From positions 17,153 through 81,152 of the IMG/VR virus record IMGVR_UViG_3300042691_032784: 64,000 nucleotides of DNA. One strand, 5' to 3'. The position numbers and the translations under genes were made by a program. Below the pieces are notes generated by a model. It ran no database searches. It saw nothing but the letters and a program-made list of their open reading frames with translations, and was not told where the DNA came from. Below, piece after piece: positions 15,953 to 63,929 of this stretch (its first letter is position 1; the number at the start of each line of letters is the position of its first letter). The stretch is from a virus.

Positions 15953-16624
15953 TTAATTAAAAGTTTTAATTTGTTTAATTTCTTCTGTTATATATTTATT
16001 ATCTATATAACTTAATAATTCTTGTAAATCATTACTATAAAATCCTCCACAAGAATCTATTACTTCTTCTTCAATAAATGTATCTTCAATAAATGTATCT
16101 TTAGATAATTCTTCTTTATTTTTAAATAAATATAATTTTTTATATTTTTTAAAATTAACTAATTCAAATCTATATACATTTCCAGCTAAATAATTATTCC
16201 AATTAGTAATTAAATTATTAGCATAATATTTAGCAATTTCTTCATCTGATAAATCTTTTAATTCATCATTATGTTTTCGTTGTAAATCAAAATCAAAATC
16301 ATTTTTATCAACTAATATAAATCCTGTTGAACTTACATCAAATTTATCACCTTGATGAGATAATGATAATAAAATCCCACTATGTATATAAGCATATACA
16401 GTAAATATATAATAATTATTTAATTTATAATTTTCATAATTATTATATAAATAATTATATATATCAATAGGTTTATAGCCTTCTATTTCTACATAAAAAT
16501 TAGGATGGTCATAAACTAAAAATATATCACTATTTCCCCAATCTCTAGGACTTTCAGAATTATCATCAGTATAAATTCTTAATTCTTTATTAAATTTTAA
16601 AGAATATTTAGCTATTAGATTCAT
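15953..16624 (-). CDS. Hypothetical phage protein with ESPRDWGN motif
   Basis: 223 residues. The N-terminal LRIYTDDNSESPRDWGN (about residues 15-31) resembles a conserved start seen in unnamed proteins of many phages. A Tyr/Asn-rich middle is followed by an acidic C terminus. Residues near 180 repeat DTFIE twice from a 15 bp tandem duplication (16069-16098). It overlaps the pyrophosphohydrolase gene by 17 bp. Function unknown. Confidence 0.55.
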   Translation of the reverse strand: MNLIAKYSLKFNKELRIYTDDNSESPRDWGNSDIFLVYDHPNFYVEIEGYKPIDIYNYLYNNYENYKLNNYYIFTVYAYIHSGILLSLSHQGDKFDVSSTGFILVDKNDFDFDLQRKHNDELKDLSDEEIAKYYANNLITNWNNYLAGNVYRFELVNFKKYKKLYLFKNKEELSKDTFIEDTFIEEEVIDSCGGFYSNDLQELLSYIDNKYITEEIKQIKTFN

Positions 16625-17144
16625 TAATGAATTGTTTTAAATTAGCCGGAGAATAATTAATTGATTTAAGAACTTTATTATCTTTATCTCTATAAGTAAT
16701 AAATTTACCTTTTATTTCTTTAGCTGTACATTCTATACTTTCTTTTTGGTATTTTACACAAGTATCTAAAGCTTCTTCTTTACTATTAGATACTTTACTC
16801 ATATTACTTCTATGTACTTCTTCAAAAGCATCATCAAAAATATTAGTAAAACCATGTTCAATAATAGCACCTGATAGTACATATTGTAAATCACATAAAG
16901 CATCAAGCTGTTCTACTACATTATATTGATTTTTATCAGGATTATAAGCTTTATGATAATCATAACATAAATCTGCAAAATGATCAGATAATCCACTAGC
17001 TTCAGCATATTCTTTTAATTCTTCAAATATTAATTCAATACGAAGTTTATTTCTATCTTCAGGAATATTAATAATACTTTCATGTACAGGTTGTTCAAAT
17101 AAAGTCATAAATTCTTTAACTTTATTAATATAACTAATAACCAT
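16608..17144 (-). CDS. MazG/PRA-PH-like nucleoside triphosphate pyrophosphohydrolase
   Basis: 178 residues from ATG at 17144. A longer frame to 17213 exists, but its first 23 codons overlap the upstream gene, and ATG 17144 follows that gene's stop by one base. FEELKEYAEASGLSDH and EQLDALCDLQYVLSGAII give the ExxE and D-rich helices of all-α NTP pyrophosphatases, followed by FEEVHRSNMSK typical of phage members. It probably hydrolyses non-canonical or host (d)NTPs to monophosphates. Substrate not predictable by eye. Confidence 0.7.
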   Translation of the reverse strand: MVISYINKVKEFMTLFEQPVHESIINIPEDRNKLRIELIFEELKEYAEASGLSDHFADLCYDYHKAYNPDKNQYNVVEQLDALCDLQYVLSGAIIEHGFTNIFDDAFEEVHRSNMSKVSNSKEEALDTCVKYQKESIECTAKEIKGKFITYRDKDNKVLKSINYSPANLKQFINESNS

Positions 17145-17145
17145 A

Positions 17146-17727
17146 TTATTTATTTTTATCAAATGAAACTTTAACTCCTTCTTTTTGTTTTTTAATAGGA
17201 GCACTAACAACACAATCTTGTCCTAATTCAGTCCATTCTAAACTAGGCATTCTATCAATAACTTTAGTAGCAGTAGGAATTCTTAAATCATTATTATTAG
17301 GAATTAATAATTTTAATTCATCTTCTCTATCTTTAATTAATTGTTTAACTTTTTCTTGTATATCATACAATTCATTAAGATATATATCATTACATTCCCT
17401 AAAATCATAATAAGTATATGTAGCGGCTACAGATAAACTAGCTCCAAACATTTTAACAGTTTTAACATTACCTGAAAGATTTTTTCTAACTTCAGATATT
17501 ATAATATCTTTAGCATCATCATTCTTACTAACAACTTCTACTAATTTTTCCATTCTTTTCATTGCTAAATGAAATTGAATAGGATTTATATAACCTTCTC
17601 TTAATTTATCTACTAATGCATCTGCAACTGCTATATGGTCTGCATTATAAACATTAAGAAATTTAGTAAGTCCTTGACTTACATTATCATCATCGATAAT
17701 TTCTTCATTGTCAATATTTTCTGACAT
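17146..17727 (-). CDS. Hypothetical conserved phage protein
   Basis: 193 residues. An acidic N terminus is followed by helical segments, then VKMFGASLSVAATYTYYDF near residue 96 and a coiled-coil-like stretch VKQLIKDREDELKLL. This pattern is familiar from uncharacterised phage proteins of similar size near replication genes. It is the first gene downstream of the 17728-17848 gap and may lead a transcript. Function unknown. Confidence 0.55.
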   Translation of the reverse strand: MSENIDNEEIIDDDNVSQGLTKFLNVYNADHIAVADALVDKLREGYINPIQFHLAMKRMEKLVEVVSKNDDAKDIIISEVRKNLSGNVKTVKMFGASLSVAATYTYYDFRECNDIYLNELYDIQEKVKQLIKDREDELKLLIPNNNDLRIPTATKVIDRMPSLEWTELGQDCVVSAPIKKQKEGVKVSFDKNK

Positions 17728-40349: not shown

Positions 40350-40982
40350 TTATTTTTTGTTACCTTTTCCGGCAGGTTTACCAAAAGCTTCTGTTTCTAC
40401 TTCATCTTCTTCTTCAGCTTCAGAAGTATAACCTGCAAAAGGATTAGGTTGAGCAACAGGTTGAGCAACAGGTTGAGCAACGGCACCAAAAGAACTAATA
40501 CCCATAGATGCTAAAAAGCCTTTACCAATGGTATTAGCAATAGCTAAACGAGTTAGTTCCATATCAGTCAATGGAATATCCATAAAACCTTCAATACGTT
40601 GTCCGTCTTGTTGATAAGCAACTCTATCACCAATCTTTACTTTACCACTCAATTCATGAGTAGTAGTAGTAATAGCAGGATGTTTTTCATCGATAATATA
40701 AGTATCGCCTGCTTTATGATAAGAGATTTCAGTAGTTGCAATAGCACCTCTACAAGCATGTAATTCAGCTGTAAATTGAGGGTCTTCAACACTCACAACA
40801 CCAATAGCTCTACCGCTGTTTTGAAGAGAGATAAGAGCTTGTTGAGGATTAACAACAATATCCGGATGTCTAGTAACCATACCATTAGTAACTTGGTCAA
40901 CTGCAAAAATAACAACAGGACGTTTAACTTTAGTGTTCATAGGAATGATACGAACTCCATTAATTCTAAATTGTGTTTTCAT
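40350..40982 (-). CDS. Conserved-looking soluble protein with AQPV repeats, unusual GC
   Basis: 210 residues from ATG at 40982 (MKTQFRINGVRIIPMN); an upstream ATG at 41024 would add a hydrophobic, AT-encoded 14 residues and is rejected. The main domain (about residues 15-150) is α/β with VNPQQALISLQNSGRAIGVV. Then come AQPVAQPVAQP, an acidic stretch and a basic GKPAGKGNKK tail. Codons are visibly richer in G/C than neighbours, suggesting high expression or separate origin. It has a long structured leader. I do not recognise the family; a DNA-binding or early host-takeover role would be a guess. Confidence 0.6.
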   Translation of the reverse strand: MKTQFRINGVRIIPMNTKVKRPVVIFAVDQVTNGMVTRHPDIVVNPQQALISLQNSGRAIGVVSVEDPQFTAELHACRGAIATTEISYHKAGDTYIIDEKHPAITTTTHELSGKVKIGDRVAYQQDGQRIEGFMDIPLTDMELTRLAIANTIGKGFLASMGISSFGAVAQPVAQPVAQPNPFAGYTSEAEEEDEVETEAFGKPAGKGNKK

Positions 40983-41014
40983 AATAAAATATATAAATAA
41001 ATAATAAAAGATTT

Positions 41015-41118
41015 TAGTAGCCACAAGGACTACTACAGAACGTGGTTAATGCTTAAACAAACAAGCAAAGCTATGTGTTAACACAAAATCTAAGCGAGTA
41101 TTATTAATTTAAGCATTA
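41015..41118 (-). promoter_or_regulatory. Structured 5' leader of the 210-aa gene
   Basis: TAATGCTTAAA (41047-41057) pairs with TTTAAGCATTA (41108-41118). Inside is the palindrome TGTGTTAACACA (41074-41085). Nearer the gene, TAGTAG (41015-41020) pairs with CTACTA (41030-41035). A folded leader controlling or stabilising the mRNA is likely. Confidence 0.55.
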
Positions 41119-45267: not shown

Positions 45268-47553
45268 ATGAGAGCAATTACTTCACAAGCTTTTAATATT
45301 GTTAATTCTTTATCTGAGGAGACTATTAATAATTTAAGAACTCCTAATAATATTCATGTATATAGAACTCCATATAAAGAAGTTCCTTTACAGGCTATTA
45401 ATGTAGATACTGATAAGCTTACTATGTTTAATGCAGAAGATATTGCTTTTGTTAATACTTCTGGTTTTACAGAAACAGGTAGGAATTTTATTAAAACAGG
45501 TAAATATACTAATGCTCATCCTAAATTTGATAAAAGAGAATATAATGCATTTTGGGATAGAGAAGAAGACCGTTGTAAAAATGGTATGAGTTTGCCTGGA
45601 AAATTAATGAAACGTGAAGATGGTACTCTATGTTTACAAAAAGTTCATATTACAGGTGAACATTATGGTTATCTTAATTTTGCTGAAATAAAACGTTCTA
45701 AAGAATTTGAAGTTAAAAAAGGAGCTCTTTATGGACCTGGTAGTGAATTACTTAATTCTACACATAATGGTGGTCATACTAAATCTTTTAGTTTACCTTC
45801 TTTTTGGGATGGAGATTATTACTTTTTTAAAGCTATTGAACTATGCAGACAAATTGGTAAACATTTAGTTGTTGGTAAAGCTCGTCGTAAAGGATATTCT
45901 TATAAAAATGGTTGGCTTGTTGCTAATTTAGCTAATTTTATTAGAAGAAGTACTTCTGTTGTAGGTGCTTATGATGCTGCATCTTTATTTGATGATGGTA
46001 CTATGGTTAAAGTAATGAATTACCTTAACTTTATTAATAAACATACTGATTGGAGTAAAGGTAGATTAGCTAATACATTAGAACATATAGAAATTGGATT
46101 TAGATATAAAGGAGATGAAGCTAAATATGGTTTCTTATCTAATATATATACTGCTGTTCTTAAAACTAATCCAGGTGGAATGAGAGGTAAAGATGCTGAT
46201 TTACTTCTATTAGAAGAAGCAGGTAAATGTCCTAATCTTTCTGCTGTATTAGATGCAACTCTTAAAACTCTTACTGACGGTGCTTTTATTACAGGTCTTA
46301 TGATTATATTTGGTACAGGTGGTGGTGAAGATAATTTATGGCAAGGTTTTGAAGATTTATTCTATGAATGTTATGCTAGAAATTTTGTAATGTTTAATAA
46401 TGTTTGGGATGATGAAATGGAAGGAACAGGATGTGGATTTTTTCATGCTTCTTATATGAATAAACCTGGACTTATTGATAAACACGGTAATAGTGATATT
46501 GCTGGTAGTTTAGCTTTTGATGATTTTGAAAAAAGTTTATTAAAAAATAGTCCTGCTAAACTTAATGCTCATGAAATGGAAGAACCTAGAAAACCTAGTG
46601 AAGCATTTAGTCGCTCTGTAAATAATATATTTCCTGCTAAAGAAATTAATGAACAATTAAGAAGATGTTTACATGAACCTTCTTTACAAGGTATTGGAAG
46701 ACAAGGTTTCTTTTTACAAAAAGAAGGAAATAAAATAGCATTTATAGATAATAATAATGCTAATGCTTATGAAAAACAATTTATTTATCCTGAATTAAAT
46801 AATTATCCTCTTAGACAAGAAGATAATGATTTAAGAGGTTGTTGGGTATTAGTAGAACAACCTTATAGAGATGCTAATGGTAATATTCCTGAAAATTTAT
46901 ATCATATTTGGAATGACCCTTTTGGTATTAGTAAAGAAAAAGGAGAATTTAAAATTAATAAAGATTCTTTAGCTTCTTGTTTTTTATATGAAGCTGCTAA
47001 TAATTTAACTCCAACTAAAGGAGATAGAATTATAGGTTGGTATCATGGTAGAACAGAAGAAACTAAAGATTATGATGAACAAATGTTTTTAGCAGCTTTA
47101 TATTTTAATGCTAAAATACTATTTGAAAATGATAGAGGTGATGTTTTTAATAACGCTAAAAATAGAGGACTTTTACATATTCTTAAAGAAGAAACTGAAT
47201 TTCAATTTCAAAAAGAATTAACTGGAGGCGGTAAAGGTAGAAAAAAAGGTATATCTATTGCTGCTAATATGAATAGGAAGGCTACCGGTGTTATATACCT
47301 TAAAGATTGGTTACTTAGTAAGCGTGGAACTGATAAAAACGGTAATCAATTACTAAATTTGCACTATATATATGATATAGGTTTATTAAGAGAATTACTT
47401 AAATTCACTAATAAAGGTAATTTTGATAGAGTTTCATGTGCTATTGTTGGTATGTTTGATATTAAAGAAACTTTATTTAAAAATATAGTACCAACTAATA
47501 CTGCTGTTGATGAAGAAGAAGATGAATATTTTAGAAATCCTTTAAATAGTTAA
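45268..47553 (+). CDS. terL: Terminase large subunit
   Basis: 761 residues. VVGKARRKGYSYK (about residue 205) is the crAss-type Walker A-like loop. ADLLLLEEAGKCP is Walker B with catalytic Glu. The nuclease half has HIWNDPFGI, AKILFENDRGD and NFDRVSCAIVG for the RNase H-like metal site. It packages DNA through the portal encoded next. Length exceeds classical TerL (about 500-600 aa) but is usual for crAss-like phages. Confidence 0.92.
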   Translation: MRAITSQAFNIVNSLSEETINNLRTPNNIHVYRTPYKEVPLQAINVDTDKLTMFNAEDIAFVNTSGFTETGRNFIKTGKYTNAHPKFDKREYNAFWDREEDRCKNGMSLPGKLMKREDGTLCLQKVHITGEHYGYLNFAEIKRSKEFEVKKGALYGPGSELLNSTHNGGHTKSFSLPSFWDGDYYFFKAIELCRQIGKHLVVGKARRKGYSYKNGWLVANLANFIRRSTSVVGAYDAASLFDDGTMVKVMNYLNFINKHTDWSKGRLANTLEHIEIGFRYKGDEAKYGFLSNIYTAVLKTNPGGMRGKDADLLLLEEAGKCPNLSAVLDATLKTLTDGAFITGLMIIFGTGGGEDNLWQGFEDLFYECYARNFVMFNNVWDDEMEGTGCGFFHASYMNKPGLIDKHGNSDIAGSLAFDDFEKSLLKNSPAKLNAHEMEEPRKPSEAFSRSVNNIFPAKEINEQLRRCLHEPSLQGIGRQGFFLQKEGNKIAFIDNNNANAYEKQFIYPELNNYPLRQEDNDLRGCWVLVEQPYRDANGNIPENLYHIWNDPFGISKEKGEFKINKDSLASCFLYEAANNLTPTKGDRIIGWYHGRTEETKDYDEQMFLAALYFNAKILFENDRGDVFNNAKNRGLLHILKEETEFQFQKELTGGGKGRKKGISIAANMNRKATGVIYLKDWLLSKRGTDKNGNQLLNLHYIYDIGLLRELLKFTNKGNFDRVSCAIVGMFDIKETLFKNIVPTNTAVDEEEDEYFRNPLNS

Positions 47554-59090: not shown

Positions 59091-59319
59091 TTCAGATTTT
59101 ACTATTACAAGTATTAAACCTTTAATAGTATCTTTACTTGGATTAATTATTAGTTATGTTAATATTAATCAAATTCTTAGTATTATTGTATTAATTTTAT
59201 CTATTATATATACTGGTTATAAAATAGAAGAAATGCATAATAAAAGAAAAACTAGATTAAAAGAAGAAAAAGAAGTTAAATCTAAATTAGAAGAAAATGA
59301 TAACAACAATAATAATTGA
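59080..59319 (+). CDS. Second holin-like membrane protein
   Basis: 79 residues. Two closely spaced hydrophobic segments (about residues 13-28 and 31-46), then a highly charged tail ending in Asn repeats. A holin/antiholin pair with the previous gene is plausible. It overlaps the amidase start by 23 bp, coupling their translation. Confidence 0.6.
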   Translation: MMDNSDFTITSIKPLIVSLLGLIISYVNINQILSIIVLILSIIYTGYKIEEMHNKRKTRLKEEKEVKSKLEENDNNNNN

Positions 59320-59935
59320 TAGAGGTCATGGTTTATTAGATAAACAAGGTAATTATGTTACTCCTGGTAAAAGAGCTACTCTCCCTGATGGGAGAGTAGT
59401 TTTTGAAGGTTTAGAAAATAATAAATATGCAAAAGCTATTGCTAAAGCTGCTAAAGAAGCAGGATTTAATGTAATTTTTACTGTACTTACTACTGATTTT
59501 AAAGATGTATCTTTAGTAGAAAGAGTAAATAAAGCTAATAAACATCCTAATAAAAATAGTGCTATATTTTTATCATTACATAATAATGCCGCTAATGGTA
59601 AAGCTTTTGGAACAGAATTATTTACTTCTAAAGGTCAAACATTATCTGATATATATGCACAACATATTATTGATAGATATAGAATTAGTTTTCCTAACAG
59701 ACGTATGAGAACTGATAAAACAGATAAAGATTGTGATAAAGAATCTAATTTTTATGTTTTAGCTAGAACTATTATGCCTTCTATATTATTTGAATTTGGA
59801 TTTTTTGATAATCCTACTGATTATGATTGGTTAAGTAATGAAAAAAATATAGATTTATTAGCAAAATGTACAATAGATGGTATTGTATCTGCTAATATTG
59901 ATTTATATGGAGAGCATATATATCCACTTAAATAA
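59297..59935 (+). CDS. N-acetylmuramoyl-L-alanine amidase endolysin
   Basis: 212 residues. TIIIDRGHG (His 11), VVFEGLENNKYAKAIA (Glu), IFLSLHNNA (His) and ILFEFGFFDN (Glu) are the zinc and catalytic residues of Amidase_3. Single domain, no binding module or signal peptide, so release needs the holins. A 10 bp hairpin inside the coding sequence (59376-59399) is unusual. It cleaves the peptide from glycan at lysis. Confidence 0.9.
   Translation: MITTIIIDRGHGLLDKQGNYVTPGKRATLPDGRVVFEGLENNKYAKAIAKAAKEAGFNVIFTVLTTDFKDVSLVERVNKANKHPNKNSAIFLSLHNNAANGKAFGTELFTSKGQTLSDIYAQHIIDRYRISFPNRRMRTDKTDKDCDKESNFYVLARTIMPSILFEFGFFDNPTDYDWLSNEKNIDLLAKCTIDGIVSANIDLYGEHIYPLK
59376..59399. other. Perfect 10 bp intragenic hairpin
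   Basis: CTACTCTCCC, loop TGAT, GGGAGAGTAG, followed by T5 (59400-59404). It reads ATLPDGRVV in the amidase and resembles an intrinsic terminator or attenuator. Confidence 0.85.
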
Positions 59936-61718: not shown

Positions 61719-62144
61719 ATGAAATATATAAATAAAATTATTGAATTTTTTAAATATGTAACACAAACTTCTAATTGGTTATTACATATTATATTAGGTA
61801 TAGGTATTGGTAATATGTTACTTTGTTATGTTAGAAATACTTTTCTACAATTAATAATTGCTGTTTTATTTACTACTGTTATTGCAGGACTATTAGAAAA
61901 AGGACAAAGTATAGTACTAAAAGTAAAACCTGATATTAGAGATGTTATTGCTACTGGTATATTAGGAGGTTTTATTAGTTTTTTAATTAATATTACTTTT
62001 TATGGTATTCATTTTGATACTGCTAAAATTGAAAATAAAGAATTTCTTTCTATAATATTTTATAGTGGAGTTATTTTAGTTATTTATTCTATTATACATT
62101 GGACTATTATTCAATTTATTAAATTAAAAAAAGAAAATAAATGA
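61719..62144 (+). CDS. Multi-pass membrane protein
   Basis: 141 residues from ATG 61719, four bases after the previous stop. A longer frame from 61689 would overlap that gene and is not preferred. Four hydrophobic helices at about residues 20-37, 40-56, 75-95 and 110-130. Ends in TGA overlapping the next ATG. Function unknown; additional lysis or superinfection role possible. Confidence 0.6.
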   Translation: MKYINKIIEFFKYVTQTSNWLLHIILGIGIGNMLLCYVRNTFLQLIIAVLFTTVIAGLLEKGQSIVLKVKPDIRDVIATGILGGFISFLINITFYGIHFDTAKIENKEFLSIIFYSGVILVIYSIIHWTIIQFIKLKKENK

Positions 62145-62509
62145 TTTGGATATTATTAACTTTAATAGCTTATATACTATTTAATATTCTATTTATAGTT
62201 AATTTTTTTGCAGTAATTTATAAATATGGTTTTAAATGTTCTGTAATTATTGGTTTTTTTAAACAAACAGCTATTGATTTAGATAGATATGGAAATCATA
62301 ATTACAGAACTTTATTTAATATTGCATTAAAAAAAGAAAATGGTTATAAATTTGGTAATGTTAATGAAACTATAAGTAGTGTTTTAGGTAAAAATAAAAG
62401 AGATAGTACTTTATCTAAAATAGGTATAATTGTTTGTACTATTTTAGATTTTTTAGATGAAAATCATTGTATAAAAAGTATTAATAATAATATATATAAT
62501 TATGAATAA
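62141..62509 (+). CDS. N-anchored protein of unknown function
   Basis: 122 residues. Helix at about residues 3-28 (WILLTLIAYILFNILFIVNFF). The cytoplasmic part has IDLDRYGNHNYRTLFNIAL, NVNETISSVLGKNKRDSTLS and ENHCIKSI, a pattern I associate with a widespread unnamed family of small phage proteins located near lysis genes. Function unknown. Confidence 0.55.
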   Translation: MIWILLTLIAYILFNILFIVNFFAVIYKYGFKCSVIIGFFKQTAIDLDRYGNHNYRTLFNIALKKENGYKFGNVNETISSVLGKNKRDSTLSKIGIIVCTILDFLDENHCIKSINNNIYNYE

Positions 62510-63185
62510 AAATATTAAAAATATAGCAAGAATTGTAATAATAATAATTTTATTATTATTTGTATTTCATTTAGCAAAAGATTGGTTAAGACCTAAAATT
62601 ATTAAAACTTTAGGAGGTTATACTGATAAAGAAGTATCTAGTAAAATTGATACTTTAGAAAGACGTTATGATACTTTATATTTTGATTATCAAAATATTA
62701 TTAGTAATGCTAGTATTAGTAAAAGAGATACTCTAACTAATTATGTTATCAAATGGGAAACTAAATTTATAAATTCCGGTCAAATTTTTACTAAGGACAC
62801 GATTACACGCATTTCGGAAGCGTATATTTCATTCAATACCATAGATGATACTTTAATATCAGGAAAGATAAAAACCGTTATAAACGCTTCAAATTGCGAA
62901 ATTGTTGAACAAAATTTGGATTATAAACCTAAATTCCCTACATTAGTAAAAGAATATATTACTGTTAAAGAAACTATTACTGAAACTTTAACTAATGAAC
63001 CTAAAATTAAATTAGGTATTGGTGCAGATGCTACTTTTAATAGAGATTTTAGTTTATTTGGAGTATATCAAAGTAAAAATAATTGGCAAATTCAAGGTGG
63101 TTATCAATGGAATACTGAAACATTTGATAGAAATAATATTAGAAATACTGGTGCTATAAAAGTAGGATTAGTTAAATTATTTTAA
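62502..63185 (+). CDS. N-anchored periplasmic protein, mosaic; possible spanin
   Basis: 227 residues. Transmembrane helix at about residues 9-27 (ARIVIIIILLLFVFHL), helical segment, then a β-rich C terminus (KLGIGADATFNRDFSLFGVYQ; WQIQGGYQWN) resembling outer-membrane strands. Such inner-to-outer spanning could suit a spanin. Bases about 62775-62935 use G/C-ending codons and frequent CG, unlike the rest of the gene, which suggests a recently acquired patch. Confidence 0.55.
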   Translation: MNKNIKNIARIVIIIILLLFVFHLAKDWLRPKIIKTLGGYTDKEVSSKIDTLERRYDTLYFDYQNIISNASISKRDTLTNYVIKWETKFINSGQIFTKDTITRISEAYISFNTIDDTLISGKIKTVINASNCEIVEQNLDYKPKFPTLVKEYITVKETITETLTNEPKIKLGIGADATFNRDFSLFGVYQSKNNWQIQGGYQWNTETFDRNNIRNTGAIKVGLVKLF

Positions 63186-63929
63186 ATGAAAACATTAAAT
63201 CAAATAGCAGAAAATATTGCTTTTAAATTAGGAGATCAATTTAATCATACTTTACAAGAAAGTATAAAAGATACTCTAATAGATTGGAGAGCTAAATTTT
63301 TAAGAGATGATGCAGATAGAAATTTTATATCTGATATTCATTTTTCTCAAACTATTACTATACAATTTCAAAAAGTTAATTTATTAACTGAATTTAATGC
63401 TAATTTTGATTGTATTAATAGTATATGTAGTGGTATTCAAGAACAAGAAGAATATATGATTCTTAAAAGTACTAAAAAAATACCATTACCTATAAGAACT
63501 AAAATTAGTCATACAAATCCATATAATTATATAGGAAGTATTGATGGTTTTAGAAGTTTTAAATATACTACTATTGATAAATTTCCTTATTTAAAACATT
63601 TAAAATATAATAGTAGAGTTATTTATTATATTATTATAGATGGATATTTATATATAATAAATAATTTAGATTTGTGTGATATTAATAATACTTTAAATAT
63701 TTGTAATGTTATGATTCGTGGAGTTTTTGAAAATCCTAGAGAAGTATTTAAAGTTTGTTCTGTTAATAATGGATTTGCAGATGATGCTATTTTCCCCATA
63801 GGTGTTGATATGTTGATGCAAATTAGTAATGGTATTGTAAGAGGTGAATATCCTCTTAAATCTAGTAAAGGTGAAGAAATAAATATTAAGAATAATGATA
63901 ACAATCAAAACAATGTTCGAACTTCATAA
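63186..63929 (+). CDS. Probable head-tail connector/ring protein 2
   Basis: 247 residues. MKTLNQIAENIAFKLGDQFNHTLQESIKDTLIDWRAKFLRDD is the helical opening of connector/adaptor proteins; a β domain with Cys residues follows. It resembles the 53928 product in layout. The FPIGVDMLM segment comes from a dispersed-motif copy. Role inferred. Confidence 0.5.
   Translation: MKTLNQIAENIAFKLGDQFNHTLQESIKDTLIDWRAKFLRDDADRNFISDIHFSQTITIQFQKVNLLTEFNANFDCINSICSGIQEQEEYMILKSTKKIPLPIRTKISHTNPYNYIGSIDGFRSFKYTTIDKFPYLKHLKYNSRVIYYIIIDGYLYIINNLDLCDINNTLNICNVMIRGVFENPREVFKVCSVNNGFADDAIFPIGVDMLMQISNGIVRGEYPLKSSKGEEINIKNNDNNQNNVRTS
63790..63818 (+). repeat. Dispersed motif, copy 19 (C strand on plus)
   Basis: TTTTCCCCATAGGTGTTGAT, then ATGTTGATG. 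Sense in the 63186 gene. Any inverted partner would lie near or beyond the window edge. Confidence 0.65.

Follow-up and report, generated by a model that had tools for sequence, protein, structure and literature searches.

Divergent crAss-like phages share an island of atypical codon composition at the same domain of a spanin-like gene

The DNA analysed here is a stretch of 64 kb (hereafter the window, from the genome denoted G000) that makes up most of a virus record of 81,152 bases. Matches to the major capsid protein (PF23898), ring protein 2 (PF25702), the terminase and the portal assign it to the crAss-like phages. It is strongly AT-rich, with a GC content of 0.237, a genome-wide GC at third codon positions (GC3) of 0.054 and a CpG observed/expected ratio of 0.25, and its noncoding DNA is likewise AT-rich (GC 0.225). 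The depletion of CpG extends to three relatives (G002 to G004, ratio 0.27-0.39); the ratio is 0.91 in a homologous contig with 35% GC (L036). The gene under study lies 3' of an amidase endolysin and immediately 5' of ring protein 2, in the following order:

59297-59935, plus strand: endolysin (Amidase_3, Pfam), which gives the lysis context
62141-62509, plus strand: small membrane-like protein upstream (phrog_3342)
62502-63185, plus strand: island-bearing gene, 227 amino acids, predicted from sequence searches and a structure model to be N-terminally membrane-anchored, beta-rich and spanin-like
63186-63929, plus strand: Crassvirus tail ring protein 2, which serves as anchor gene on the downstream side

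Within the last 4 kb of the window, the sole DNA match to the phage collection was found at 62351-62476 (126 bp), which is 72.7% identical to a small gene beside a holin and an amidase in the Flavobacterium Muminvirus phages. This similarity may hint at a Flavobacterium-like host.

Codon composition changes sharply inside the gene at 62502-63185. With Met and Trp set aside, all 16 of its GC-ending codons fall within codons 83-145, and the edges of this island are abrupt because such codons are absent from codons 1-82 and from codons 146-227. The island and its halves are as follows:

62748-62936, plus strand: island, codons 83-145, which takes in every one of the 16 GC-ending codons, with 8 CpG and a GC3 of 0.27
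62775-62850, plus strand: 5' half, with the highest surprisal per codon, a poorly conserved protein sequence and indels between relatives
62850-62940, plus strand: 3' half, ending at the conserved motif YKPK(F/N)P; in each of the four genomes the anomaly stops close to this motif

GC3 was 0.278 in the patch (codons 92-145), compared with 0.035 in the remaining gene and 0.054 in the genome, and the GC content at codon positions 1 and 2 was unchanged in the window (0.324 versus 0.333). The patch has a GC content of 0.30, which is not extreme alone, as 9% of 161-base windows are equally high. The anomaly sits in third codon positions and CpG, with overall GC only modestly raised. An earlier note on this DNA had pointed to a patch of GC-rich codons at 62775-62935, with about eight CG dinucleotides that are rare elsewhere, the codons ACG, CGC, TCG and GCG, and flanks that revert abruptly. 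All of these features are real: the patch holds 8 CpG (as does 62750-62910), the maximum for any 161-base window in the 64 kb (the runner-up has 5), and the named codons are codons 100, 103, 105 and 107. The codon-usage scan that the note had proposed, run with 53-codon windows over 59 ORFs, placed the island first with a z of 8.05 (second best, 4.75). A segment scan of GC3 scored the island 30.9 and gave one other segment of similar score, the first 18 codons of the ORF at 16611-17213 (31.0), which contains no CpG. A different IMG/VR record (contig G001) is 100% identical to the window through the patch, and a local assembly error is unlikely, barring a common source of both records.

Homologs of the gene were found by IMG/VR scans in four other viral records besides the identical contig G001. 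Three of them belong to diverged crAss-like relatives, namely G002 (L003, 71% protein identity), G003 (L009, 34%) and G004 (L010, 37%), and L036 is a short contig of a different phage. Relatives were sought in IMG/VR with the gene, ring protein 2, ring protein 1 and pair alignments, which named only G001 to G004, L036 and a few further records, and two scans of genome contigs yielded no further relatives. A profile of the gene matched five of the eight records searched, leaving G005, G006 and cr127_1 without a match, and the phage collection contained no homolog for three versions of the protein.

An AlphaFold2 model built from five sequences was poor overall (mean pLDDT 59, pTM 0.30). Much of its better confidence is held by a beta unit, with block-mean pLDDT values of 63-81 over residues 71-140; residues 147-168 were modelled as disordered and residues 170-225 as C-terminal strands. 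The parts of the model that matter here are listed below:

62508-62609, plus strand: predicted N-terminal transmembrane helix, residues 3-36 (structure model)
62727-62930, plus strand: predicted beta unit, residues 76-143, which coincides with the island (structure model)
62943-63005, plus strand: low-confidence linker, residues 148-168, with genome-typical codons again (model and codon count)

A predicted N-terminal anchor followed by a periplasmic domain, with endolysin-type genes upstream in the window, L009, L036 and L010, are traits of an i-spanin. Such genes lie shortly upstream in G003 and L036 (glucosaminidase and M23 peptidase by Pfam), and the one in G004 was judged amidase-like from the likeness of its sequence to the window amidase. 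By position and topology, the product is likely a spanin-like lysis protein anchored in the inner membrane, and the envelope-spanning protein suspected earlier thus looks probable from lysis context and structure model. A unimolecular spanin was considered and rejected, as the model has a long membrane-type helix at the N-terminus and beta strands at the C-terminus, not a lipobox and a C-terminal transmembrane segment. Among the BFVD matches was a phage protein of the DUF6808 family (A0A8S5PJU3; E 4.4e-3, rank 5), a weak fold match, yet with TM-scores of 0.21 and 0.25, and Pfam gave no sequence match. A PHROG match to residues 83-142 (phrog_28853, E 0.0024) was not relied on, since the relatives match other PHROGs weakly.

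A similar island was present on the same segment of the gene in all three diverged crAss-like genomes that carry it, so that it is not absent from the orthologs, whose GC3 in the corresponding segment is 0.25-0.43. For these comparisons 80,000 bases of each of the three records were scanned, with the last 3-5 kb outside the scan. GC3 in the patch and in the genome was 0.278 and 0.054 in G000, 0.29 and 0.085 in G002, 0.338 and 0.09 in G003, and 0.444 and 0.085 in G004. Among the codon anomalies of each scanned genome the island ranked first in G002, second in G003 and first in G004. The segment scores of 30.9, 31.5, 31.2 and 47.1 (G000, G002, G003 and G004) compare with maxima of 20.0, 21.4, 20.8 and 16.9 in 200 resampled genomes each. 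In all four genomes the onset of the anomaly falls inside the variable stretch of the domain or immediately ahead of it, and its end lies close to YKPK(F/N)P.

We further compared 51 window ORFs that have a match in another genome, 30 of them in all four (groups with fewer than two partners were skipped). Over these 51 ortholog groups and 5,018 windows, the island was by a wide margin the strongest GC3 anomaly shared by position, with z values of 9.6 (G000), 6.8 (G002), 9.1 (G003) and 10.1 (G004); the next best shared window, in the terminase gene, reached 5.8, 2.7, 4.7 and 4.2 in the same order. Counting only selected tracts (segment score of at least 22 and at least 6 CpG), the chance of the tracts of the other three genomes falling on the same segment was 3.7e-7, and for G003 and G004 alone about 1.3e-4, the fairest figure because G000 and G002 have common ancestry; inclusion of the high-scoring tracts with 0-2 CpG that were left out (three in G002, two in G004) would raise the chance value several-fold. 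Several of these left-out tracts lie at ORF starts and are possibly miscalled. Rather than an isolated accident, the island is something that recurs or is kept in this segment of the protein. Among the titles that searches of one library of open PMC papers listed, none dealt with an island of this kind in crAss-like phages.

The terminase anomaly (47224-47382, about codons 654-707 of the gene at 45268-47550) lies near the C-terminus, is weaker, and is present in all four genomes; it surrounds an NRKxxGV-like stretch, is strongest in G003 (codons 626-670) and could mark a homing or packaging-related site. The gene at 40353-41024, on the minus strand, shows a mild GC3 excess in all four genomes (codons 25-69) that is spread over the gene, and perhaps encodes a highly expressed protein. 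In cr127_1, another crAss-like phage, the unrelated gene gp_26515 (L051 19333-19659, minus strand) carries a GC3-rich tract at codons 9-51 (GC3 0.40, 5 CpG); its product is short, membrane-anchored and coiled-coil-like, and it lies near probable lysis genes.

Synonymous sites are nearly saturated between the distant genomes. Synonymous identity, with the saturation expectation in brackets, was 0.763 (0.687) for G000-G002, 0.711 (0.681) for G000-G003, 0.680 (0.666) for G000-G004, 0.694 (0.646) for G002-G003, 0.665 (0.638) for G002-G004 and 0.638 (0.630) for G003-G004. One ancient import would have faded by now between distant genomes. Between these genomes, GC-ending sites fall at matching positions about as often as expected by chance, indicating that the composition is shared and not the sites. 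Since noncoding DNA in the window is also AT-rich, an unmaintained tract should decay; the persistence of the island implies renewal or selection. G000 and G002 have rare codons in common at the same places (for example TCC-GGT, TGC, TTG and TTC), and a single import before these two split is possible. Given these common codons, the 3' half of the island seems older than the split. At 62910-63020 (codons 137-173), which overlaps the 3' end of the island, all 30 codons at which the two proteins have matching amino acids are identical between G000 and G002, the genome-wide maximum, tied with two other places; this perhaps reflects exchange between the two lineages.

The two halves of the island differ in protein conservation. 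No part of the gene varies more than the 5' half (amino acid identity 0.10-0.53 across six pairs), whereas the 3' half belongs to the better conserved regions of the protein and is still rich in GC-ending codons. Tract identity was 0.69 for G000-G002 (flanks 0.63 and 0.87), 0.36 for G000-G004 (0.38 and 0.38) and 0.33 for G000-G003 (0.40 and 0.42), so that divergence from the orthologs is no greater in the tract than in its flanks, in a set with too few sequences for a tree comparison.

The patch is supported as compositionally foreign. In dinucleotide composition the pooled patches lie at a delta of 0.10 from L036, compared with 0.20-0.21 from their own genomes, and their CpG ratio is 1.31 versus 0.24-0.39. 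The codons of the patch were likelier under the usage of L036 than under their own in four of four genomes, and the reverse held for the rest of the gene, again in all four. Elsewhere, tracts confined to a single lineage were found in five other genes, two in G003 and three in G004 (40-67 codons, GC3 0.36-0.49, 6-9 CpG):

L024 16014-16148: single-lineage tract of G003
L027 16896-17015: single-lineage tract of G003
L029 6633-6833: single-lineage tract of G004
L031 17767-17928: single-lineage tract of G004
L028 8689-8841: single-lineage tract of G004

GC3 in the orthologs of these five tracts is 0.02-0.18, and in three of the five the GC content at positions 1 and 2 is raised relative to every ortholog. 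Because the orthologs lack them, short imports probably do occur, and the five tracts are probably such imports.

The explanation we favour, to which we give about even chances, is that island composition has been imported repeatedly into one domain of the lysis protein. A domain-length tract of about 60 codons would have brought in the codon composition of less AT-biased phages through short-tract recombination with a related, higher-GC phage. This would have happened more than once, in separate lineages, and each time on the same beta unit in the periplasmic part of the spanin-like protein. The domain might keep acquiring or retaining such tracts under diversifying selection, as the protein would serve different host envelopes. 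At lysis, the protein would disrupt the outer membrane. The recent recombination with another source that the earlier note had proposed is upheld in its foreign composition but not as recent or as one event, as the island lies at the same place in three diverged relatives; the sequence search that it had suggested found no donor of the window's island in IMG/VR or the phage collection. The note had also reasoned that relatives with the same codons would speak for long-standing composition. The relatives share the composition, with mostly different codons.

However, several observations count against import. Both limits of the island agree in four of four genomes, which is unexpected from repeated import without a reason; the better conserved 3' half is still rich in GC-ending codons; and positions 1 and 2 are hardly shifted in G000. 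The tract diverges from its orthologs much as the flanks do, which also fits the main rival, that selection keeps non-AT codons on the segment as position-specific conserved rarity, for example to slow translation during export of the membrane-anchored chain and formation of its beta unit. We regard such maintenance as possible, though tentatively so. It is favoured by the same position and limits in all four crAss-like genomes with the gene, by persistence near synonymous saturation (G000-G003, G000-G004 and G003-G004), by the coincidence with one predicted beta unit, and by a rarity that is common to the genomes when codon identity is not, the pattern under test in PMC5438181, which reports it in genes of cells. 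Against maintenance, the rare codons that cluster at the same aligned position in all four AT-extreme genomes have no counterpart in L036, where the segment has no rare-codon excess (mean surprisal -0.12 versus -0.06 in the rest of the gene). Moreover, C-ending and G-ending codons are both raised about sixfold, which looks like a change of whole composition, and the single-lineage tracts would then require a second process. A proposal that we hold slightly more tentatively still is that in these AT-extreme phages the beta unit of the lysis protein is selected for non-AT synonymous codons, as a programme conserved in position but tied to no particular nucleotide site, which would pace synthesis or export and perhaps lysis.

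Other explanations are less probable. A DNA or RNA element within the gene (packaging site, origin, antisense RNA or regulatory site) that constrains third positions is unlikely: the anomaly does sit at a fixed place and the window folds slightly better than shuffles, on its plus strand only (z -2.1), but this fold is lacking in the other three genomes (z -0.33, 0.42 and -0.34), none of the four loci has an Rfam match, GC-ending sites are common to distant genomes only at about chance, and no terminator-like site was found. In addition, the crAss-like contigs G005 and G006, incomplete and carrying the ring gene without a match to the gene, have no tract of such strength; promoters and terminators were the same as in shuffles. 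Targeted hypermutation by a diversity-generating retroelement, or co-conversion by a homing endonuclease, appears very improbable as the origin of the island. The hypervariable 5' half would suit it, as would a GIY-YIG match in G002 and an HNH match in G003; yet none of the four records has a reverse transcriptase, no near-copy of the island that could act as template or repeat occurs elsewhere in its own genome, and the nuclease matches are separated from the gene by over 30 kb, with neither in the window genome. Slightly less probable again, and the least of those considered, is an overlapping gene, such as an embedded Rz1-type o-spanin, that constrains codon choice. The island has about the right length for an embedded o-spanin, but in each of the other frames stops interrupt the island in one or more of the four genomes. 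O-spanins embedded inside i-spanin genes are a known architecture, as outlined in PMC6139136, but no same-strand frame of at least 25 codons with a lipobox-like motif occurs in the five genes, the sole motif being on the opposite strand in G004 only. The -1 antisense frame, open for 46, 51 and 45 codons over a large part of the island in G000, G004 and L036, was rejected, as it is interrupted in G003 and just as open in other parts of the gene.

Taken together, what seemed a single recent import recurs, in phages that are near synonymous saturation, at the same domain of a single gene. Either exchange is concentrated at a hot spot in the spanin-like protein, which would mark its host-envelope-facing part, or strong selection acts regionally on the synonymous codons of a lysis gene. 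Both readings are testable, and both caution against dating an import from the composition of one genome.

Intragenic mosaicism by short-tract recombination is known in phages, and the island resembles it in its abrupt limits, its donor-like composition and the single-lineage tracts of G003 and G004. It differs from the usual form in that the same segment is hit in four divergent genomes and no donor was identified. The protein itself resembles the two-component and unimolecular phage spanins outlined in PMC6139136 in its predicted N-terminal anchor, its periplasmic part and its position near endolysin and holin-like genes. Unlike in the spanins outlined there, neither a lipobox nor an embedded second gene was found; the protein follows neither the unimolecular layout nor that of an embedded pair, and, unlike in the T1 gp11 layout, its C-terminal half is predicted to form beta strands and ends in Phe. 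Compared with the conserved rare codon clusters as outlined in PMC5438181, the island covers a whole predicted beta unit (about 60 codons), occurs in phages, relieves CpG depletion, has a foreign-like composition and is missing from one homolog; like them, it keeps the same position in homologs, retains rarity and not codon identity, and lies inside a domain, as those clusters mostly do.
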